Assembly: GCA_020024985.1 (NCBI GenBank)
Contig: JAHHSW010000028.1
Span: 1-8,362, forward strand
Length of the DNA stretch: 8,362 bases
Direction of reading: 5' to 3'
From: Anaeroplasmataceae bacterium
Lineage (GTDB): Bacteria; Bacillota_I; Bacilli_A; Acholeplasmatales; Anaeroplasmataceae
Part shown: positions 1 to 8,362 of the stretch, one piece after another
Numbering within the stretch: the first letter of the stretch is position 1
Layout: each line of letters begins with the position of its first letter
Notes under the pieces: model-generated
What the model was told of the DNA's origin: nothing
The model's database searches: none
What the model saw: the letters and a program-made list of their open reading frames with translations, nothing else
Position numbers and translations under genes: made by a program

Positions 1-1
1 T

Positions 2-502
2 ACTCGTGGTGTAAATAATTTTACCTTAAGGGATATATGTGATTATCTATATATATCTACAGGAAGCCTATATTACCACTTTAAAACTAAGGATGATATT
101 ATCATGGCTATTGTTGATAAGCACTTTAGTGAGCTTGAGAATGATTATATGAGCTGGCTTGAGCGTCATAAGGAGAAGGGTGATTTAACTAAGGAGAGAT
201 TTATTGACATCATACTTTATAAGGGTACTGAGCTATTTAATAGATCTAAGATTCACTTATATTTAATAAATGAGTGTATGAAGGAGAATGAAAAGATTAA
301 GACCCATTATGAGGAGTTCATTGAATCATGGTATCAAAAGCTATTGCTTGGAGTTAAGCAGGTTTATGGAGAAAGAGAGGATATAGAGGGTATTGCCTAT
401 ACATTATTCCTAATCCTTGAGGGCCAAACCGTAAGAGTAGCTCTAGGTGATAGAAAGCCTTCATGTGAGGCCAGGGTAAAGAAGCTTTTAAAGGAGATGT
501 AA
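2..502 (+). CDS. TetR/AcrR-family transcriptional regulator (N-terminus off the window)
   Basis: The reading frame is open from the left edge; 166 residues are visible and the true start lies upstream. The ATG at 104 is internal, because the 34 codons before it encode a classic TetR helix-turn-helix: TLRDICDYL as helix 2 and STGSLYYHF as the recognition helix, followed by KTKDDII. Roughly the first 20 residues should be missing. The remainder is a helical ligand-binding/dimerisation domain rich in charged residues, too divergent to name a ligand. The stop lies 2 bp before the next gene, and the AAGGAG for that gene is formed by this gene's own last codons (Lys-Glu), so the two are co-transcribed. 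It is probably an autoregulated local repressor of the lipid/DHAP operon that follows; that role is inferred from position. The family call is firm. Confidence 0.9.
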   Translation, partial: TRGVNNFTLRDICDYLYISTGSLYYHFKTKDDIIMAIVDKHFSELENDYMSWLERHKEKGDLTKERFIDIILYKGTELFNRSKIHLYLINECMKENEKIKTHYEEFIESWYQKLLLGVKQVYGEREDIEGIAYTLFLILEGQTVRVALGDRKPSCEARVKKLLKEM

Positions 503-504
503 AA

Positions 505-2208
505 ATGTCTAATTTAGGTAAGGTAAAGAAGCTTTTACTGAAGGATGGCTATAAGGATATTAGCCTATCTGAAAGAGATGATATTATCTTTTTAGCTGGT
601 GAAATGGATAAATGGAGTGATATTGTTAATTGTGGTAAGCTAGTAGCTAAGGCTAAGCTATATAGCCATGTGGTTAATGATATTAAGCTTAAGGGCTATA
701 AGGAGCCAGCTATCCGTGAGCCTAAGGTAAATGATTTACAACTAGATAATAAGGAGGTTGATGTCCTTGTTATTGGTGGTGGAGTTGTTGGTGCTTCTAT
801 ATTAAGAGAGCTTACTAGGTATAAGCTAAGCGCATTATTAGTTGATAAGGAGGAGGATTTAGCAATCCATGCCTCTGGTAGAAATGATGGCTGTATCCAT
901 GTAGGAGTTGATTTACATAAGGGTAGTAAGAAGCTTGAATACTTAGTTAAATCTAAGAAAATAATTAAGCAGGTTTGTAGTGAGGTTGATATTGAATATC
1001 ACGAGGATGGACAAACTGTGGGCTTTAAGAATTATTTATTAGTACCTTTTGTTAGAATGTATTTAAGAAAGAAATGTAGACATAATCAAATTGAGGGGAT
1101 GAGAATTCTAAAGGGTAAGAAGCTTTTAGAGGTAGAGCCTAATTTATCTGATTCAGTTAAGTTTGGGGCGTATTTCCCTCATGCCGGTACTATTTGTCCA
1201 TATAATTTTACAATTGCCTTAGCTGAAAGCGCTGTAATAAACGGAGCTGAGGTAAGCTTTAGAACAATTGTAAGGGATATGGAGGTAGAAAACGGTAGGA
1301 TTAAGGCGGTTATTACTAATAGAGGAAGAATTATTCCTAAGCTTGTTATAAACGCAGCTGGAGTATTCTCTGATAAGATAGCAGAAATGGCTAAGGATAG
1401 GTTCTTTACAATTCACCCAAGAAAGGGTACAGATTCTATTATGGATAAGAGTGTAATAGCTTCCTTATCTAGAACGGGTGTACAAATTTTTGACCTATCT
1501 AAAAAGGGTAAGCAGGGTAATACTAAGGGTGGAGGAATAATTCCAACAGCCGATGATAATACCTTAGTAGGACCAGATGCAGTAGAGGTACCTGAGCGTG
1601 AGGATTTCTCTACTAGTGCTTCTAATGTTAATTTTATTTTTAATAAGCATTCTAAGACCATTAAGGCTTTAAAAAAGAGCGATGCAATTACCTACTTTAG
1701 TGGTATAAGAGCTACTACCTATGAGGAGGATTTTATTGTTCAAAAAGGTAAGTGGTGTAAGAATATTATCCACGCCGCTGGAATTCAATCTCCAGGCCTA
1801 ACCTGTGCTCCTGCAATAGGTGTTGATGTAGCTAAATGGGCTAGTGAAATGCTAGGTAGAGATTTAAATCCAAGCTTTAACCCTATAAGAAAGGGAATAG
1901 TTCAAACTAGAAAGCTAAGCTACGAGGAGAGAGATAGGCTAATTAAGGAAAAACCAATGTATGGACATATTGTTTGTCGCTGTGAGCAAATTAGTGAAGG
2001 AGAAATAGTTGATTCTATTCATTCAATTATTCCACCAACCACAATAGATGGAATTAAAAGAAGGGTACGTGCTGGTATGGGTAGATGTCAGGGAGGCTTT
2101 TGTCAGCCAAATGTATGTGAAATCTATGCTAGAGAAACTGGCACTAGTATAAATGATATTTGTAAAAAGGGTGATGGTAAAATCATTCTTAGGGATACAA
2201 AGGAGTAA
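505..2208 (+). CDS. GlpA-like FAD-dependent dehydrogenase (DAO fold plus BFD-like [2Fe-2S] domain)
   Basis: This 567-residue protein is probably a glycerol-3-phosphate dehydrogenase-type flavoenzyme oxidising a glycerol phosphate to the keto form and passing electrons to its neighbours. A non-homologous-looking N-terminal segment (residues 1-84) precedes the FAD Rossmann motif GGGVVG (91-96). SGRNDGCIHVG (124-134) matches the flavin-contacting region of the DAO superfamily and resembles L-2-hydroxyglutarate oxidases as much as GlpA. FTIHPRKG (301-308), LVGPDA (354-359) and HAAGIQSPGLTCAPAIG (423-439) are typical of clostridial GlpA-like proteins. The C-terminus has C491, C493, C528 and C533 in the CxC...CxxxxC pattern of BFD-like [2Fe-2S] domains. 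No signal peptide or membrane segment is visible. The start has AAGGAG eight bases upstream, and the stop lies 4 bp before the next gene. The N-terminal extension of about 85 residues is unusual. The family is confident, the exact substrate is not. Confidence 0.85.
   Translation: MSNLGKVKKLLLKDGYKDISLSERDDIIFLAGEMDKWSDIVNCGKLVAKAKLYSHVVNDIKLKGYKEPAIREPKVNDLQLDNKEVDVLVIGGGVVGASILRELTRYKLSALLVDKEEDLAIHASGRNDGCIHVGVDLHKGSKKLEYLVKSKKIIKQVCSEVDIEYHEDGQTVGFKNYLLVPFVRMYLRKKCRHNQIEGMRILKGKKLLEVEPNLSDSVKFGAYFPHAGTICPYNFTIALAESAVINGAEVSFRTIVRDMEVENGRIKAVITNRGRIIPKLVINAAGVFSDKIAEMAKDRFFTIHPRKGTDSIMDKSVIASLSRTGVQIFDLSKKGKQGNTKGGGIIPTADDNTLVGPDAVEVPEREDFSTSASNVNFIFNKHSKTIKALKKSDAITYFSGIRATTYEEDFIVQKGKWCKNIIHAAGIQSPGLTCAPAIGVDVAKWASEMLGRDLNPSFNPIRKGIVQTRKLSYEERDRLIKEKPMYGHIVCRCEQISEGEIVDSIHSIIPPTTIDGIKRRVRAGMGRCQGGFCQPNVCEIYARETGTSINDICKKGDGKIILRDTKE
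2199..2205 (+). promoter_or_regulatory. Ribosome binding site that fixes the GlpB-like start
   Basis: AAAGGAG lies 7 bp before the ATG at 2213. The frame stays open upstream to an ATG at 2153, but that longer form would overlap the preceding gene by 56 bp and add 20 residues with no counterpart in the family. The FAD-binding strand begins directly after 2213, which supports the downstream start. Confidence 0.8.
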
Positions 2209-2212
2209 TATT

Positions 2213-3445
2213 ATGGAAGATTTTGATATTATTGTTATAGGTGGAGGACCTGGTGGACTTGCGGCAGCAGTAAGAGCCTCTAAGGGTGCTAGAGTCTTAT
2301 TAATTGAGCGTGAGCCAAGGCTTGGTGGTATCTTAAAGCAATGTATCCATGATGGTTTTGGTGTTACAAGATTTAAAGAAAAGCTAAGTGGTCCAGAATA
2401 TGCAGCTAGAGAGATAGAGGCTTTAAAGGGAACTAATGTTAAAATTTTAAAGACTACCTTTGTTACTAATATAGAGTATGGTAAGGATAAGACAGTAGTT
2501 AGCTACTGTAATGAGAGTGGTATGGGTAAATCCTCATGCAAGAAGCTTATTTTAGCAACAGGCTGCCGTGAAAGAACTAGTAAGCAAATTAATATTCATG
2601 GTACTAATCCAGCTGGTGTTATGACAGCGGGTCAGGCTCAGTATTATATTAATATACTAGGTAAGATGCCAGCTAAGGAGGCTATTATCTTAGGCTCTGG
2701 TGATATTGGCTTAATCATGGCAAGAAGATTAACCCTAGAGGGAGCCCATGTAATTGGTGTATATGAGGCTAAGCCAACCCCAAGTGGCTTATCTAGAAAT
2801 ATTAGCCAGTGCTTAACTGACTTTGATATTCCACTTCATTTATCTCATACTGTAACTAGAGTCTTTGGTGTAGATAGGCTAGAGGCCTGTGAGGTATGTA
2901 AGGTAGATGAGAGGATGGCTCCAATTCCTGGAACTGAGGAGATTATTAGGTGTGATACCTTAATTTTATCAGTAGGCTTAATTCCAGAAAATGAGCTAGC
3001 AAAAATGATAGAGGTACCACTTAATCCATTTACTAAGGGCCCATTTGTTGATCAAGCCTTTGAAACTCTAAAAAGTGGTGTCTATTCCTGTGGTAATGCG
3101 ATGCATGTTAATGATTTAGCTGATTATGTATCAGAGTCTGGTGAGATTGCTGCGGATAATGCTATAGAGGTTTCTCATAAGGAAAGATGCCTATACAAGG
3201 TAGATTTTGATGAGCATTTTGGCTATGTAGTTCCAAGCCATATAGATTTTAATAAGAGCACAGAGAAAATGACCTTTTATTTTAGATCTCGTGCTGAATA
3301 TAAGAATAAGCTATTAAAGGTAATGGAGGGTGACGAGGTTATTTATAAGAAGGCCTACGGAGGCTTACGTCCACCCGAGATGGAAAAGGTTATATTAACC
3401 GTTAAGGATAAGGGTAATATAAGGTTTATTTTGGAGGATAAGTAA
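2213..3445 (+). CDS. GlpB-like NAD(P)/FAD-dependent oxidoreductase
   Basis: A 410-residue two-dinucleotide-fold flavoprotein of the pyridine nucleotide-disulfide oxidoreductase superfamily. The FAD motif is GGGPGG (10-15), the second nucleotide-binding motif is GSGDIG (161-166), the ATG motif is ATGCRE (115-120), and the C-terminal FAD motif includes VYSCGNAMHVNDLADYVSE (290-308). No redox-active CxxC sits after the first FAD motif, so it is an oxidoreductase subunit rather than a thioredoxin-reductase-like enzyme. In anaerobic Firmicutes and Thermotoga such proteins are encoded between a GlpA-like dehydrogenase and a DUF1667 protein, and all three occur here in that order. The inferred role is to move electrons between the GlpA-like subunit and NAD(P) or another carrier. 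The next gene starts 1 bp after its stop, which suggests coupled translation and equal subunit amounts. Confidence 0.87.
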   Translation: MEDFDIIVIGGGPGGLAAAVRASKGARVLLIEREPRLGGILKQCIHDGFGVTRFKEKLSGPEYAAREIEALKGTNVKILKTTFVTNIEYGKDKTVVSYCNESGMGKSSCKKLILATGCRERTSKQINIHGTNPAGVMTAGQAQYYINILGKMPAKEAIILGSGDIGLIMARRLTLEGAHVIGVYEAKPTPSGLSRNISQCLTDFDIPLHLSHTVTRVFGVDRLEACEVCKVDERMAPIPGTEEIIRCDTLILSVGLIPENELAKMIEVPLNPFTKGPFVDQAFETLKSGVYSCGNAMHVNDLADYVSESGEIAADNAIEVSHKERCLYKVDFDEHFGYVVPSHIDFNKSTEKMTFYFRSRAEYKNKLLKVMEGDEVIYKKAYGGLRPPEMEKVILTVKDKGNIRFILEDK

Positions 3446-3446
3446 T

Positions 3447-3809
3447 ATGAAGGAATATATATGTATTGTCTGTCCAAATGGCTGTCATTTATGCTATGAC
3501 GAGGTAAATAATACCTGTACAGGTAATAAATGCCCTAGAGGTGCTAAATATGCCTTCCAGGAATTTACTAATCCTAAAAGAAGCGTAACCTCAAGCGTTA
3601 GAACAACCGTTAAGGGTTATCCAGTTATAAGCGTAAGGACAGATGGAGAAATAAATAAGGGTCTAGTTAAGGAGCTAATGGAGGAGCTAAGAGGAGTTAT
3701 AGTAGATCATCCACTTAAGCTTAATGAAATAGTAATTGAAAATGTATTAAATACAGGTGTAAATATTATAACAACTACACCTATGGAAGGAGAAAATAAT
3801 AATGAGTAA
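3447..3809 (+). CDS. DUF1667-family cysteine-rich small protein
   Basis: A 120-residue protein whose N-terminal third is a dense metal-binding segment: C6, C9, C13, C16, C24 and C29, with CIVCPNGCHLC (6-16) and TGNKCPRG (25-32). This is the signature of DUF1667 proteins, which accompany GlpA/GlpB-like flavoproteins. The segment probably holds an Fe-S cluster or zinc; an electron-transfer role comparable to GlpC of the E. coli anaerobic dehydrogenase is inference. The C-terminal part (about 35-120) is a small mixed domain with KRSVTSSVRT and PLKLNEIVIENVLNTGVNI. There is no membrane segment, so any membrane attachment would differ from GlpC. The start has TTGGAGGA upstream, and the end overlaps the AGPS-like gene by 8 bp, so translation is probably coupled to it. 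The family call is firm. Confidence 0.88.
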   Translation: MKEYICIVCPNGCHLCYDEVNNTCTGNKCPRGAKYAFQEFTNPKRSVTSSVRTTVKGYPVISVRTDGEINKGLVKELMEELRGVIVDHPLKLNEIVIENVLNTGVNIITTTPMEGENNNE

Positions 3810-5556
3810 GCCATATAAGGGATTTGAGCCAAAATGGTATAGAGGAGAGGTTCCTGCTAATTCATACCGTTCAATATTTAAGTGGGGTAAGCCTGACTTT
3901 ATTAAGGTACCTAAGGAAACACTTTATAATATGATGAAGGGAATATTTAACGTTACAGATGATGATTTTAAAAGCTATAATGAAAACCTTGGCCTAGATG
4001 AGGTTAAGTTTGATGTAGCTAAGAAGGCTTGTAAGGACGAGGATATTAAGTTCTTTAAAAGCGTATGTGGTGATGATAATGTTAAGGATGATGATTATTC
4101 ACGCTTAAGTGTTGCCTATGGTAAGACAATGTATGATTTATTACGTCTTCGTAATAAGATTGTTGAAAATATTCCAGATGTTGTTGTTTACCCATCTGAT
4201 AAAAAGGAAATTGAAAAAATTGTTCAGTACTGTGTTGAAAGAAGGATTCCTGTATATGTATATGGTGGAGGGTCTTCAGTAACTCGTGGTGTTGAATGTA
4301 TGAAGGGGGAAGTTTCATTTGATATGAGAAAGAACTACAACAAGGTTATTTCCTTCAATGAAATTGATCAAACCATCACAGTTCAAACAGGTATGTCAGG
4401 CCCACAGCTAGAGAGTCATTTAAATAACGCTATAGCTGAATTTAAGGCTAAAAGAGCTTATACCTGTGGACATTTTCCACAAAGCTTTGAATATTCATCA
4501 GTAGGTGGCTGGGTTGTTACAAGAGGTGCTGGACAAAATTCTACATATTATGGTAAAATCGAGGATATAGTTCTTTCTCAGGAATATGTAACACCTGTAG
4601 GCAAGATTGTTACCTCTCACGCTCCAGCTGAGGCAACTGGCCCATCTATTAATCAAATTATGATGGGTAGTGAGGGTGCCTTTGGTATTTTAACTGAGGT
4701 TACACTTAAGGTCTTCCGTTATATGCCAGAAAATAGAAAGAGATATTCATTTATGTTTAAGGACTGGGAAACTGCACAGGCTGCGGCTAGGGAAATGATG
4801 CAGTGTGAGGGAGGAACGTCTTCAGTCTTCCGTTTATCAGACCCAGAGGAAACATCTATTATGATGAAGCTTTATGGAGTTGAGGATTCTCCACTTGCTA
4901 AGCTATTTAAGCTAAGAGGCTTTAAGGATAATGAAAAGTGCTTATTCTTAGGCTTTAGTGATGGTGAAAAGGGCTTCAGTAAGAATGTTAGTAGATGCAT
5001 AAAGAGAATTGCTCGCCACTTTGGTGGTATGAACCTAACAGGCTATGTTACTAAGTCATGGGAGAAGGGGAGATTTAATGACCCTTACCTACGTGATTCT
5101 ATGCAGGACTTCGGTATTATGACTGATACCCTTGAGTGCTCAGTTAACTGGAGTAATATGGCTCAGGTACATAGGGATGTACGTGCCTTCTGTAAGAGTA
5201 GACCTAATACGATTTGTATGACACATATGTCTCATGCTTATCCACAGGGTGCTAATTTATATTTCATTTTCATAGCTAAGATGTCAGATTTAAAGGAGTA
5301 TAAGGCTTACCAGGATGGAATTTTGGATGCTATCCAAAAGGCTGGCGCTTCAATGAGCCACCATCATGGTATTGGGAAATCCTTTGCTCCATGGCTAGAG
5401 GGCTCACTTGGTAAGAATGAGTATGAAATATTCAAGGTATTAAAGAATCACTTTGACCCAGAGTTTTTAATGAATCCAGGTGGAACATTAGGACTAGATT
5501 TAAAGCCTGAGGAGAAGATTTCAAAGTCTGATAAAATAGACTTTACAAAAAGATAA
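3802..5556 (+). CDS. Alkyl-dihydroxyacetonephosphate synthase-like FAD-binding protein
   Basis: A 584-residue member of the VAO/PCMH flavoprotein family (FAD_binding_4 plus FAD-oxidase_C). The first FAD-binding segment is VYGGGSSVTRGV (153-164) after PDVVVYPS (125-132), the second is SSVGGWVVTRGAG (232-244), and TGPSINQIMMGSEGAFG (279-295) completes the site. The cap domain continues with YLRDS (429-433), the NLYFIF segment (485-490) and SHHHGIGK (519-526). Aligned from memory to human AGPS, Arg431, Tyr487 and His520-522 fall on its catalytic Arg515, Tyr578 and His615-617. The N-terminal RSIFKWG (23-29) also resembles AGPS. The eukaryotic enzyme replaces the acyl chain of acyl-DHAP with a fatty alcohol, without net redox change. 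D-lactate or glycolate dehydrogenases are the main alternative, but the AGPS-type motifs and the G3P/DHAP neighbours favour the synthase. Its start (GGAAGGAG upstream) overlaps the DUF1667 gene by 8 bp. Confidence 0.85.
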   Translation: MSKPYKGFEPKWYRGEVPANSYRSIFKWGKPDFIKVPKETLYNMMKGIFNVTDDDFKSYNENLGLDEVKFDVAKKACKDEDIKFFKSVCGDDNVKDDDYSRLSVAYGKTMYDLLRLRNKIVENIPDVVVYPSDKKEIEKIVQYCVERRIPVYVYGGGSSVTRGVECMKGEVSFDMRKNYNKVISFNEIDQTITVQTGMSGPQLESHLNNAIAEFKAKRAYTCGHFPQSFEYSSVGGWVVTRGAGQNSTYYGKIEDIVLSQEYVTPVGKIVTSHAPAEATGPSINQIMMGSEGAFGILTEVTLKVFRYMPENRKRYSFMFKDWETAQAAAREMMQCEGGTSSVFRLSDPEETSIMMKLYGVEDSPLAKLFKLRGFKDNEKCLFLGFSDGEKGFSKNVSRCIKRIARHFGGMNLTGYVTKSWEKGRFNDPYLRDSMQDFGIMTDTLECSVNWSNMAQVHRDVRAFCKSRPNTICMTHMSHAYPQGANLYFIFIAKMSDLKEYKAYQDGILDAIQKAGASMSHHHGIGKSFAPWLEGSLGKNEYEIFKVLKNHFDPEFLMNPGGTLGLDLKPEEKISKSDKIDFTKR

Positions 5557-5577
5557 ATAATTAATGGGAGAAGTGCT

Positions 5578-6492
5578 ATGAAGCATATATTTATTATTAA
5601 TCCAAAGGCAGGTAAGGTGGATAGGGTAGCTGAAATTACCGATGAGCTTAAGGAGTTTGATGGTAGGATTGATTATGAAATCTATGTTACCAAATCACAG
5701 GGTGATGGAAGAGAATACGTAATGAAGTACCTAGATGAGCATGATGAAAATGAAAAATATAGGTTTTATGCAGTTGGTGGAGATGGATCATTACATGATG
5801 TATGTAATGGCGCTTATGGACATAAGAATGCTGAGGTCGCAGTATATGCCTCAGGTAGTGGTAATGACTTTATAAAGAACTTCGGCGGTGGAGCTGAGTT
5901 TAAGGATTTAAATAGCTTGATTAATGGTAAGGCTGAGTGCGTTGATTTAATTAGAGTTAACGATAAAATATGTGTAAACATTGTGAGCTTCGGCTTTGAT
6001 GGCGAGGTAACCTTTGGTATGCATAAGTTTAAGCGCTGGCCTTTAGTTACAGGAAGGATGGCTTATAATTTAGCAGCGGTAACCTCATTACTTTTTAAGA
6101 TGACTACAGTCTTTAAATGTGTAGCTGATGATGAGGTTATGCTAGATGGCAAGGGTCTACTTGTCGCTATCGCAAATGGCCATACCTATGGTGGAGGCTT
6201 TAAGTGTGCACCAGAGGCAAAGGTAAATGATGGTGTTATGGATATTTGCCTAGTTAAAAAAATTTCAAGATTTAAGTGTGGAGCCCTAATGAGCCTATAT
6301 AAGAAGGGTGAGCATTTAACAAGCCCTAAGCTTAAGGATGTAATTTTATATAAAAGAGCTAAGATAGTAGAAATATCTGCCCCAAAGCCTGTAGCCTATC
6401 AAATTGATGGTGAAACCTTCAGAACTGATAAGCTAGAGATTGAAATTATTCCAAGAGCTATTTCCTTTGTAATACCAGAGCCTCTTAAATAA
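5578..6492 (+). CDS. Diacylglycerol kinase-family lipid kinase (DagK/YegS-like)
   Basis: A 304-residue soluble lipid kinase that would transfer the ATP gamma-phosphate to diacylglycerol or a related lipid to give a phosphatidic acid. NPKAGK (8-13) opens the nucleotide-binding domain, GGDGS (67-71) is the family's GGDGT-type motif with Ser for Thr, and GSGNDF (93-98) follows. The C-terminal beta-sandwich domain has ANGHTYGGGF (199-208), AKVNDGVMDICLV (214-226) and the conserved IDGE (276-279). There is no transmembrane segment, as usual for this family; it should act at the inner face of the membrane. The start has GGGAG 7 bp upstream. It is the last gene of the operon, 21 bp after the AGPS-like gene and just before a terminator. 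The context suggests it recycles a diradylglycerol into phospholipid synthesis; sphingosine- or NAD-kinase-like specificity cannot be excluded from sequence alone. Confidence 0.9.
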   Translation: MKHIFIINPKAGKVDRVAEITDELKEFDGRIDYEIYVTKSQGDGREYVMKYLDEHDENEKYRFYAVGGDGSLHDVCNGAYGHKNAEVAVYASGSGNDFIKNFGGGAEFKDLNSLINGKAECVDLIRVNDKICVNIVSFGFDGEVTFGMHKFKRWPLVTGRMAYNLAAVTSLLFKMTTVFKCVADDEVMLDGKGLLVAIANGHTYGGGFKCAPEAKVNDGVMDICLVKKISRFKCGALMSLYKKGEHLTSPKLKDVILYKRAKIVEISAPKPVAYQIDGETFRTDKLEIEIIPRAISFVIPEPLK

Positions 6493-6500
6493 AAGGATAT

Positions 6501-6531
6501 CGTGAGCCTAGGCTCACGCTTATTTATTCTT
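6501..6531 (+). terminator. Probable Rho-independent terminator of the six-gene operon
   Basis: A perfect 18-bp palindrome, CGTGAGCCTAGGCTCACG (6501-6518), begins 8 bp after the kinase stop codon. It can fold as a 7-bp stem with a CTAG loop and is followed by CTTATTTATTCTT, a T-rich but interrupted tract. The stem is GC-rich compared with its surroundings. The weak T tract and exact symmetry mean it could instead, or also, be a protein-binding site for the promoter that starts directly after it. Confidence 0.7.
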
Positions 6532-6559
6532 GAATTACAATGGATTATTATGTTAAAAT
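6530..6559 (+). promoter_or_regulatory. Sigma-A-type promoter of the GNAT gene (extended -10)
   Basis: TTGAAT (6530-6535) serves as -35 and TAAAAT (6554-6559) as -10, with an 18-bp spacer that ends in the extended element TGT. Transcription would begin near 6566, giving a very short leader before AAGGAG (6571-6576) and the ATG at 6584. The same TGTTAAAAT string occurs in the promoter at 7906-7914. Confidence 0.7.
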
Positions 6560-6583
6560 AAAGCTAAAGGAAGGAGTCAGAAT

Positions 6584-6856
6584 ATGAATATTATTAAGGA
6601 TAAGAATATCGTTTATATTAAAAACGAAGAGGGTAAGATGATTGCCTATTGTACATTCCCACCTATTGGTGAGGGCTTAGTTATGATTGATCATACCGTA
6701 GTAGACCCATCACTTAGAGGCCAGGGTGTTGCCGGCAAGCTTATGGCTCTTGCCTATGAGTCAATTAAGGAGCAGGGCCTTAGGGTAAGACCTGTTTGCT
6801 CATACGCAGTTGGTTGGTTTGATAAGAACCCTGATAAAAAGGATATATTAGAGTAA
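6584..6856 (+). CDS. Small GNAT-family N-acetyltransferase (YjdJ-like, COG2388 type)
   Basis: A 90-residue single-domain acetyltransferase of the short GNAT branch. The acetyl-CoA pyrophosphate-binding loop is RGQGVA (45-50), preceded by IDHTVVDPSLRG (35-46), and the branch hallmark VRPVCSYAVGWFDKNP follows at 68-83, with Cys72-Ser-Tyr. The length is normal for this branch, so nothing is missing. The acceptor is unknown; members of this group have not given a general substrate rule. It is a stand-alone gene with its own promoter, AAGGAG 7 bp before the start codon, and terminators on both sides, so its position after the lipid operon says nothing about a shared function. Confidence 0.9.
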   Translation: MNIIKDKNIVYIKNEEGKMIAYCTFPPIGEGLVMIDHTVVDPSLRGQGVAGKLMALAYESIKEQGLRVRPVCSYAVGWFDKNPDKKDILE

Positions 6857-6887
6857 AAAAATGGTCATTTATTGACCATTTTTCTTT
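6857..6887. terminator. Bidirectional terminator between the GNAT and HAD genes
   Basis: A perfect 11-bp stem pairs AAAAATGGTCA (6857-6867) with TGACCATTTTT (6873-6883) around a 5-base loop. On the plus strand it continues as TTTTTCTTT; on the minus strand the complementary stem ends in a run of T. It starts immediately after the GNAT stop codon. The stop codon and last few codons of the opposing HAD gene lie within it, so it serves both convergent genes. Confidence 0.9.
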
Positions 6888-7681
6888 AGAATATAGTTAA
6901 TCATTTTAGCTGCACCATTATGATTATTATCATATTTAGTAACATATTTTGCCTTAGCCTTTAAAAGTGGGCTACCATTAAGCATGGCAGTGCCATTATA
7001 GGATGCCTCTATTAGCTCTATATCGTTCTTTTCATCACCTATAGCTATATTATTAGAAAGTGGTATATTAAGCTTATTATGTATGAATTTAAGGGCATTA
7101 CCCTTAGTCCCAAGAGCATCATAAAGCTCAATATTGATATATTCCTTATATTCCCAATATCTATAGGAAATACGTTTATATTTTTCCTTTTTAAGGATTT
7201 CCTCACATTCCTTTAAGGAAGAGGCTTTAACAAAAAGACAGGGATTAATGGGATTATGATTAATAATTTTTTCTATGTTTCCTCTAGCTACTGGCCTTTT
7301 ATCAATAATATCCTTACACCAGGCGGGAATTAAAGCCTCATTTTCAATACAGATATTATTAAAATCCTGTGAGAAGGCCGCAACTAAATATTCTCTTATT
7401 TCATTTACAAAATCAATAAATAAGGTCTTATCTATGGCTCTTAGGATTGTTTTATTTTCCTTATGAAAGTATATAGAGCCTCCATTATCACAAACACTAA
7501 TATCTGGCTTAAGCCTATTAATATATTTAGAGGCTGATTCATAGCATCTACCTGTTGCTAAAGAGAAGATATGACCTTTTCTTTTTAATTTTTTAATATA
7601 GCGAATAGTTTTAAAGATAAGCTTGCTTTTACTATTTAAAAGCGTTCCATCTAAATCACACATTATAATATACTTTTCCAT
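6869..7681 (-). CDS. Cof-type HAD-IIB family phosphatase
   Basis: A 270-residue haloacid dehalogenase-superfamily hydrolase with all four motifs: motif I DLDGT (9-13; Asp9 nucleophile, Asp11 acid/base), motif II in ATGR (42-45; Thr43), motif III Lys193 in GTKGNAL, and motif IV GDEKND (215-220). The insert between motifs II and III (about 85-185) is the C2B cap of Cof/YidA-type enzymes, which dephosphorylate sugar phosphates, flavin precursors or similar small molecules; the substrate cannot be read from the sequence. Length is typical. The start is supported by AGGTGG on the minus strand at 7685-7690. It lies just downstream of the tRNA-His gene on the same strand and converges with the GNAT gene. 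No separate promoter is obvious in the short space after the tRNA terminator. Confidence 0.92.
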   Translation of the reverse strand: MEKYIIMCDLDGTLLNSKSKLIFKTIRYIKKLKRKGHIFSLATGRCYESASKYINRLKPDISVCDNGGSIYFHKENKTILRAIDKTLFIDFVNEIREYLVAAFSQDFNNICIENEALIPAWCKDIIDKRPVARGNIEKIINHNPINPCLFVKASSLKECEEILKKEKYKRISYRYWEYKEYINIELYDALGTKGNALKFIHNKLNIPLSNNIAIGDEKNDIELIEASYNGTAMLNGSPLLKAKAKYVTKYDNNHNGAAKMINYILKKNGQ

Positions 7682-7690
7682 ATAACCACC

Positions 7691-7722
7691 TATAAAAAAT
7701 AAAAGGTCTATTGCTAGACCTT
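7691..7722 (-). terminator. Rho-independent terminator of tRNA-His
   Basis: Read on the minus strand, AAGGTCTA and TAGACCTT (7703-7722) form an 8-bp stem with a 4-base loop, followed by TTATTTTTTATA. It starts 12 bp after the tRNA's CCA end and finishes 9 bp before the HAD start codon, so it also occupies the leader of that gene. Confidence 0.85.
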
Positions 7723-7734
7723 GAATTTACCTAC

Positions 7735-7811
7735 TGGGGCGCATAACAGGGATCGAACCTGCGCGTGTCGGAGCCACAATCCGATGTGTTAACCACTTCA
7801 CCATATGCGCC
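7735..7811 (-). tRNA. tRNA-His (anticodon GTG)
   Basis: The 77-base cloverleaf has the encoded extra G at -1 opposite C73, which is diagnostic of tRNA-His. The acceptor arm is GCGCATA paired with TATGCGC. The D arm has AAGTGGTTAA in its loop. The anticodon arm is TCGGA-TTGTGGC-TCCGA with anticodon GTG, and the T arm is GCAGG-TTCGATC-CCTGT with one G-U pair. CCA is encoded at 7737-7735. It closely follows the Bacillus tRNA-His layout. It is a single tRNA, not part of a cluster, with a strong promoter upstream and a terminator downstream. Confidence 0.97.
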
Positions 7812-7849
7812 ATATTTATTTTTACGCTTTTTGTAGGCGTGCATTAATT

Positions 7850-7877
7850 ATTATACACGAAAAAATTAATTTGTAAA
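7850..7877 (-). promoter_or_regulatory. Promoter of tRNA-His
   Basis: On the minus strand TTTACA (7877-7872) and a consensus TATAAT (7855-7850) are separated by 16 bp. Transcription would start near 7843, about 30 bases before the mature tRNA end. The near-consensus elements fit a highly expressed stable RNA. Confidence 0.8.
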
Positions 7878-7886
7878 GAAAAAAGT

Positions 7887-7914
7887 TTGATTTTTTTTAG
7901 AAAAATGTTAAAAT
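7887..7914 (+). promoter_or_regulatory. Promoter of the membrane-anchored protein gene
   Basis: TTGATT (7887-7892) and TAAAAT (7909-7914) are 16 bp apart, with TGT directly before the -10 as an extended element. The spacer contains most of a run of eight T (7891-7898) followed by a run of five A. It diverges from the tRNA-His promoter, with about 10 bp between the two -35 elements. Confidence 0.65.
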
Positions 7915-7948
7915 GTTTATTGAATTATGAAAAGAAAGGAATTATAAA

Positions 7949-8362
7949 ATGTTTAAAACAATACTTAAGGTTATTTACTTCGCATTAGCGTTCTTTATTT
8001 CAATAATTACCTATATGGTTACCTACCAGGGTAATATATATGATGTATTATATGAAAGAGCTAATGGCTATATTAAAGAAGAAAACTATGATCAGCTAGG
8101 AAGAATGTTCGGTGGAATTTTCAATTCTAATGAAAGAATCGACGGAAGCCTAGATGAATATAAAAACGATAAGTTACGTATTCAATTATATGAGGGTACT
8201 ACTGAGGCTAATTACACCTATTATGTAAAGGATAAGGATGATAAGGGTAAGGAGGTAGAGCTTCAAAAGTCATACCATGCTTATGATAAAGCTTATTATC
8301 TATATTTATTTAATGTTGATTTCGCAACCTCAAATGTTACAGATAATGATAAGAAGCTAGCT
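7949..8362 (+). CDS. Unrecognised membrane-anchored protein (C-terminus off the window)
   Basis: An open frame of 138 codons runs to the right edge without a stop. The start ATG has AAAGGA 8 bp upstream, and a promoter lies a little further up. Residues 5-26 form one hydrophobic segment (ILKVIYFALAFFISIITYMV is its core) after a short lysine-containing N-terminus. There is no obvious signal peptidase site or lipobox, so it is probably a signal anchor with the rest outside the cytoplasm. The visible part after the anchor is polar and rich in Tyr, Asn, Asp and Lys, with a YTYYVKDKDDKGKE stretch near residues 89-102. I recognise no domain. The gene starts its own transcription unit and is unrelated in layout to the lipid operon. 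It is clearly coding by codon use; function unknown. Confidence 0.8.
   Translation, partial: MFKTILKVIYFALAFFISIITYMVTYQGNIYDVLYERANGYIKEENYDQLGRMFGGIFNSNERIDGSLDEYKNDKLRIQLYEGTTEANYTYYVKDKDDKGKEVELQKSYHAYDKAYYLYLFNVDFATSNVTDNDKKLA

Follow-up and report, generated by a model that had tools for sequence, protein, structure and literature searches.

The stretch of DNA analysed here (hereafter the window; 8,362 nucleotides, positions 1 to 8,362 of the forward strand of contig JAHHSW010000028.1, assembly GCA_020024985.1, from an Anaeroplasmataceae bacterium) carries, between positions 2 and 6492, an operon that joins a homologue of the ether-lipid enzyme AGPS to three genes resembling the anaerobic glycerol-3-phosphate (G3P) dehydrogenase and to a kinase of the YegS family. 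We consider the chances about even that this operon is a catabolic module for glycerol ethers, the likeliest substrates being alkylglycerols released from ether lipids. More tentatively, its presence in at least three lineages of anaerobes (Bacilli, Clostridia and spirochaetes), together with the counterparts found among Proteobacteria and Actinomycetes, may point to an oxygen-independent glyceryl-ether pathway in which AGPS works in reverse. The weakest point is the substrate: that it would be of a lipid type in the window is based on the YegS gene and on a BON domain in the dehydrogenase.

The AGPS homologue (3802..5556, + strand; FAD_binding_4 and FAD-oxidase_C domains), for which we predict cleavage of alkyl-dihydroxyacetone phosphate (alkyl-DHAP) to DHAP and an alcohol, has the AGPS of Dictyostelium (PDB 2uuu) as its closest solved structure (E 1e-71 in a sequence search). 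A profile search gave 7.1e-86 for 2uuu vs 1.1e-24 for the best D-lactate dehydrogenase (LDHD), and Foldseek, run with a structure model of moderate confidence (pLDDT 74.1), placed AGPS entries at all ranks from 1 to 37, with D-lactate dehydrogenases next. In PMC3509576, R352, R447 and Y508 are named as important to catalysis by the Dictyostelium enzyme; given one shared chain offset of 3, these correspond to R344, R431 and Y487 of the window protein, which, together with three consecutive histidines (HHH, 520-522), are invariant in all 81 aligned sequences. A lactate dehydrogenase-like (LDH-like) protein from locus L089, used as outgroup, has neither arginine and no HHH. The AGPS-like identity proposed in the initial annotation is thus borne out by sequence, fold and catalytic residues, and the protein, judged from its sequence, is a true AGPS homologue. 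The mechanism proposed for AGPS involves a flavin N5-DHAP adduct and a swap of the oxygen substituents at C1 (PMC3509576). The leaving group of such an exchange could in principle be an alcohol no less than an acid, and we infer that the window protein may catalyse the reaction in reverse.

The AGPS gene is part of a conserved unit. The loci compared (numbered with the prefix L) are the best 80 of at least 575 confirmed relatives, picked by AGPS similarity (66-83% AGPS identity) and mutually related; they span Bacilli, Clostridia, Treponema and other spirochaetes, the nearest belonging to metagenome-assembled genomes (MAGs) of a Mollicutes (83% AGPS identity) and a Bacillales (77%) member. All but one of the 64 loci whose upstream sequence extends for 6 kb or more share the order GlpA-like, Pyr_redox, DUF1667, AGPS (63 loci), and the exception is L005, which has no recognisable DUF1667; over all 80 loci Pyr_redox was found in 78 and DUF1667 recognised in 74. 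The neighbourhood survey that the initial annotation had called for therefore upheld the core order, whereas the complete six-gene order was restricted to L001 and L002. It is shared by the two nearest loci, those of the Mollicutes and Bacillales MAGs, which points to a probable host of the window among the Bacilli. Upstream of the trio, a TetR-like gene (>25 bits to the window TetR) stands in 36 of the 80 loci, divergent in 25 and co-directional in 11; the other 44 loci showed no such gene or have a cut contig. The distribution is patchy: window-type AGPS (>900 bits) occurs in four of 149 genomes of the class of L001 and four of 196 of the class of L021 (each sample including its own centre genome), with next-best AGPS scores of 181 and 148 bits, respectively. 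Such patchiness is unlike that of a core membrane pathway and is counted here in favour of cleavage; combined with a similarity of about 70% across phyla, it suggests possible lateral transfer. A single-protein query of the viral_contigs collection yielded one stretch that fitted a pattern and none that encodes a relative.

The trio consists of a GlpA/GlpO-like flavoprotein (505..2208, +; DAO and [2Fe-2S] Fer2_BFD domains), a predicted alkyl-G3P dehydrogenase; a Pyr_redox_2 flavoprotein subunit (2213..3445, +; Pfam Pyr_redox_2 100.2 bits), predicted to transfer electrons to NAD(P), with its start taken as the ATG at 2213 in an open reading frame (ORF) that extends from 2153; and a Cys-rich DUF1667 subunit (3447..3809, +; Pfam DUF1667 94.3 bits). 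The earlier description of a G3P-dehydrogenase-like trio holds in that the three genes form a unit conserved with AGPS; the label "GlpB-like" was loose, the third gene of the operon coding for the Pyr_redox_2 flavoprotein. In the GlpA-like protein the glycerophosphate-site residues, positioned by alignment to 4x9m, are almost fully conserved (the catalytic His, H132, in 73 of 74 sequences, with one gap; K341, R402 and S429, on the phosphate side, each in 74 of 74). PMC10726252 describes the role of His51. The protein falls under the NCBIfam cut-offs for GlpA (127.8 of 552.8 bits) and type 2 GlpO (173 of 460 bits). In L072 the GlpA-like gene is apparently split into a 478-aa frame and a separate 3' piece (L072:6673-8106), the cause being either a real interruption or faulty assembly.

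Relatives of the GlpA-like protein share its N-terminal 84 residues, of which approximately 1-66 (505..702, +) make up a BON-fold domain. The Pfam BON profile reaches 16.8 bits in the window protein, under the gathering score of 27; the homologue in L089 reaches 34.2 bits, above the cut-off, and BON matches at E <= 0.01 in 17 of 61 homologues. The region is predicted to fold as alpha-beta-beta-alpha-beta (pLDDT 91.5) and matches OsmY, DolP and BonA, the title of the DolP entry mentioning phospholipid binding. The modelled fold and the profile of the relatives agree with a probable BON identity in the window protein. A survey of 24 genomes connects this domain with AGPS. Beyond the 24 operon copies, kept out of the comparison because they had been chosen by AGPS, the alignment covers the BON region in five GlpA-like copies and leaves it uncovered in 25, in a tally by hand from which a 3' piece belonging to one split operon copy and four short fragments were omitted; a profile check found BON in all five and not in the three of the 25 to which it was applied. 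An AGPS-like neighbour accompanies four of the five BON-bearing copies vs none of the 25 others, some of which lie on short contigs, and 22 of these 24 genomes contain GlpA copies without BON. The Eubacterium callanderi genome from which L023 comes contains four AGPS/BON-GlpA clusters.

The kinase is the variable member of the unit. That of the window is a YegS/BmrU-family lipid kinase (5578..6492, +; DAGK_cat and YegS_C domains), a predicted alkylglycerol kinase, which scores 128.4 bits against TIGR00147, over the curated cut-off of 118.65. The commonest partner is an FGGY kinase, present in 53 of the 80 loci: between DUF1667 and AGPS in 42, after AGPS in 10 and divergent upstream in one (L072), with the domain identity tested on the proteins of two loci. 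Since no FGGY gene lies in the window, this partner was invisible to the initial annotation. The FGGY family (E <= 1e-100) occurs in 59 of 79 genomes with window-type AGPS vs five of 78 genomes of the above two classes without it (Fisher p 9e-20, the relatives being non-independent). A sister operon occurs in two of these five (L088, L089), in the order FGGY, BON-GlpA, Pyr_redox, DUF1667, a short AGPS of 472 aa that keeps HHH and the Tyr, EtfB, EtfA, FAD oxidase and a GntR regulator, with domains tested in L089 and L088 assigned by gene order. In the operon FGGY proteins R85, W104 and D247 are each found in 51 of 51 sequences and D86 and K248 each in 49, all at positions of the glycerol-kinase (GlpK) pocket; at the latter two the E and Q of GlpK are replaced by D and K in the operon proteins and retained in three of four other FGGY proteins aligned. 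Two operon FGGY proteins tested fall under every NCBIfam kinase cut-off. These traits suggest that the FGGY proteins phosphorylate something resembling glycerol without being ordinary glycerol kinases. That YegS is a plain replacement for FGGY was rejected as a complete explanation, as the genomes of L001, L002 and L035 hold YegS and a family FGGY elsewhere; the genome of L060 has YegS and no family FGGY that was seen. In some Bacilli FGGY lies apart from the operon, adjoined by two genes of about 600 aa (L083:9695-13359), one of which, when checked, had ABC_membrane and ABC_tran domains.

The strongest argument for a single pathway comes from distant homologues, of which eight were examined among the 362 records of a plasmid collection with an AGPS-like match (two were without a usable gene table and were read by ORFs, and that from Sulfitobacter stops 1.2 kb past the gene). 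A different dehydrogenase adjoins AGPS in five of the eight, and a kinase too in four. In Streptomyces fungicidicus and Tsukamurella a G3P dehydrogenase and TetR gene are divergent from AGPS and YegS, and Nonomuraea has the same layout without YegS; Enterococcus gilvus combines glycerol dehydrogenase, GlpP, FGGY and AGPS, and Roseibium LacI, AGPS, a xylulokinase-type FGGY, a Ugp/sugar ABC system and glycerol dehydrogenase. Because the kinase and dehydrogenase families vary by lineage and AGPS is constant, the three activities appear to form one pathway. The nine AGPS-like proteins aligned with that of the window (L088, L089, L094-L100) keep the equivalent of R352, the Tyr and HHH; the equivalent of R447 is absent in L088, L089, Enterococcus and Roseibium, an absence that may mark soluble substrates. 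The Actinomycete order of G3P dehydrogenase, TetR, AGPS and diacylglycerol kinase (L097:4620-9258) presumably matches that of Rv2249c-Rv2252 of M. tuberculosis.

The initial annotation read the operon in the direction of synthesis: AGPS would make alkyl-DHAP from acyl-DHAP and a fatty alcohol, the GlpA-like trio would reduce it to alkyl-G3P, and YegS would salvage diradylglycerol. This reading is not supported by gene content and seems to us unlikely, although the family and the catalytic residues do match AGPS, a lipid-kinase-family gene and a BON domain do suggest lipids, and the AGPS reaction, being a substitution, could probably run either way. Ether-lipid synthesis requires acyl-DHAP and a fatty alcohol. 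As already noted in the initial annotation, the operon has no maker of either, and none of 79 genomes (0/32 and 0/47, the window's own genome not among them) gave a match to GPAT_C, the domain that PlsB shares with GNPAT, with E. coli as a positive control. For fatty acyl reductase (FAR) the profile PF07993 was rejected as a marker, since it matches 14 of 14 controls; ten matches exceed 118 bits, eight of them in frames of at least 1000 aa and two in frames of 494 and 584 aa, and the strong matches in frames of about 500-580 aa in the genomes of L054 and L041, possible acyl reductases, count for synthesis. The Myxococcus AGPS operon, by contrast, has FAR1-like and GNPAT-like domains beside AGPS, and loss of its AGPS reduced ether lipids only slightly (PMC9131029). 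Moreover, FGGY would have no obvious role in synthesis, and the linked dehydrogenases belong to oxidation-type families, such as the GlpD-like one of Actinomycetes. A kinase, an oxidising-type dehydrogenase and AGPS are what a breakdown pathway needs, so that cleavage fits the operon better than synthesis.

If the operon does work in cleavage, its substrate could be a small soluble glycerol ether or another glycerol-linked, non-lipid compound, with BON serving assembly instead of membrane binding. FGGY kinases act on small polyols, the relatives in Roseibium and Enterococcus are accompanied by a sugar/Ugp-type ABC importer and by GlpP, respectively, and an operon of E. callanderi adjoins MtaA-like and corrinoid genes. 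Still, we doubt this alternative, because the Roseibium and Enterococcus relatives are without the R447 equivalent that the window shares with true AGPS, and the operon in the window includes a gene of the lipid-kinase family but, in the Pfam scan of the window proteins, none for an importer. Far less probable is an ordinary FAD-dependent 2-hydroxyacid dehydrogenase serving a pathway for glycerol or sugar acids, a possibility that the initial annotation had itself raised. The superfamily is shared and D-lactate dehydrogenases follow AGPS in the Foldseek ranking, but the active-site residues absent from the LDH-like protein of L089 make this unlikely, and the window protein is 31% identical to 2uuu (482 positions) vs 18% to that LDH-like protein (427 positions).

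Several observations weigh against the catabolic reading that we prefer. Its direction is drawn from gene content. The lipid kinase, presented in the initial annotation as part of the unit, is so in some lineages, Streptomyces and Tsukamurella included, but YegS follows AGPS in only four of the 80 loci (L001, L002, L035, L060); since FGGY is also present in the genomes of three of these, YegS may have another role. No kinase was seen in the flank of 23 of the 80 loci, nor the FGGY family at E <= 1e-100 in 20 of the 79 genomes with window-type AGPS; as most genomes are MAGs, absences of any kind are weak. PF07993, being non-specific, matches 74 of the 79 genomes, and bacteria could make acyl-DHAP with an enzyme that has no GPAT_C domain. 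For the fold of the BON region, VIA-align places type III secretion proteins and potassium-binding proteins among the matches too, so that fold alone does not demonstrate lipid binding. Furthermore, the partners do not always occur together: a BON-GlpA, Pyr_redox and DUF1667 trio has no AGPS within its stretch (L136:3990-7402), a short AGPS on contig C1 of the genome of L013 has no GlpA-like match on that contig, and in three of the eight plasmid records (Sulfitobacter, Polaromonas and Streptomyces NBC_01450) neither partner was present in the stretch seen.

In the catabolic reading, the kinase (YegS here; in most relatives FGGY with its glycerol-kinase-like pocket) would phosphorylate 1-O-alkylglycerol, and the GlpA-like flavoprotein, perhaps anchored to the membrane by the BON domain, would oxidise C2 to yield 1-O-alkyl-DHAP, with electrons passing from the BFD cluster via DUF1667 to the Pyr_redox subunit and probably on to NAD(P)+. 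The AGPS homologue would then take the C1 proton, form the flavin N5-DHAP adduct and expel the alcohol, which water (or a carboxylate) would replace to give DHAP (or acyl-DHAP). DHAP would enter glycolysis and the alcohol would be oxidised or used, while TetR would open the operon in the presence of the lipid or the alcohol.

Some neighbouring genes are worth recording. Downstream of AGPS in L013 lie an aldehyde ferredoxin oxidoreductase and a MoaD-like gene (L013:12254-14424), as also in L016, L022 and L028 (families tested in L013, the others assigned by clustering); Etf and FAD oxidase genes are neighbours in L089 and L133; and in Enterococcus gilvus (L095:12675-17192) aldehyde dehydrogenase, phosphate acyltransferase, butyrate kinase and alcohol dehydrogenase genes follow from 3 kb past AGPS. 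These neighbours could consume a released alcohol and are offered as leads only. In E. callanderi a short-AGPS/BON-GlpA operon (L132:5232-16000) adjoins an MtaA/CmuA-like gene, below the cut-off, and a gene for a corrinoid protein, which may connect it with methanol or a methyl ether. A gene of the DegV family, presumably fatty-acid binding, stands soon after AGPS or YegS in L015 (L015:11833-12735), L035 and L060, the family having been tested in L015 and assigned by clustering in the other two.

The layout of the window agrees with the arrangement described initially, i.e., six co-directional genes with gaps of 21 bp or less and a terminator. All six genes lie on the + strand, the largest gap is 21 bp, and AGPS overlaps DUF1667 by 8 bp. 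The first gene codes for a TetR-family regulator (2..502, +), cut at its 5' end by the window edge (Pfam TetR_N 32.5 bits, cut-off 24); domains were called with Pfam and NCBIfam on nine window proteins. A terminator-like hairpin of seven pairs (6501..6518, +) follows the last gene. It is one of seven found, where shuffled sequence gives 4.6 +/- 2.2, and its weight therefore lies in its position at the operon end and not in its score. Past the operon, the window carries tRNA-His, a small GNAT gene, an ORF without a match and, on the - strand, a HAD-type hydrolase.

AGMO, alkylglycerol monooxygenase, is termed the sole known alkylglycerol-degrading enzyme in PMC7911779 and PMC9192799; it needs oxygen, which is lacking where ether lipids are recycled in anoxic guts and sediments. 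If our proposal is true, reversal of AGPS would offer an oxygen-independent route of glyceryl-ether cleavage, likely usable by gut anaerobes, and would explain why kinase, dehydrogenase and AGPS recur together while built from different proteins. It would also make AGPS genes unsafe markers of ether-lipid synthesis, as many could mark consumers of ether lipids. AGPS homologues have been used as evidence for ether lipids in a Black Sea metagenome survey, whose authors caution that presence need not mean synthesis (PMC11868695). Among the titles and abstract openings of the open-access papers that the literature searches listed, no account of an anaerobic alkylglycerol-cleaving pathway or of this operon was recognised; PMC13274423 contains none of four AGPS/ElbD terms, and PMC12718374 covers glycerol-1-phosphate uptake and not ether cleavage enzymes.

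The window operon resembles several known systems in part. With the plasmalogen synthase of anaerobes, PlsA/PlsR, it shares the ether-lipid theme, and Pfam reported no PlsA-type domain for any of the nine window proteins. AGMO likewise breaks the glyceryl ether bond, but it requires O2 and tetrahydrobiopterin and yields a fatty aldehyde (PMC7911779). It is a protein unrelated to the AGPS homologue. The eukaryotic AGPS/ADPS enzymes (Dictyostelium 2uuu, guinea pig 4bby) have the fold, the Arg/Arg/Tyr set and HHH in common with the window protein, which, however, has no GNPAT or FAR partner and adjoins a kinase and a dehydrogenase. MXAN_1676-1674 of Myxococcus xanthus is also a bacterial operon with an AGPS homologue, whereas the window has a GlpA-like trio and a kinase in place of the FAR1-like and GNPAT-like domains (PMC9131029). 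The anaerobic G3P dehydrogenase trio has the same domain make-up and glycerophosphate-site residues as that of the window, which differs in its extra BON domain, its AGPS partner and GlpA/GlpO scores under the cut-offs. In the Actinomycete cluster of Streptomyces fungicidicus and Tsukamurella the dehydrogenase is GlpD-like and divergent, no adjoining Pyr_redox or DUF1667 is annotated and AGPS is 30-31% identical, yet its G3P dehydrogenase, TetR, AGPS and YegS represent the same four functions that are brought together in the window.

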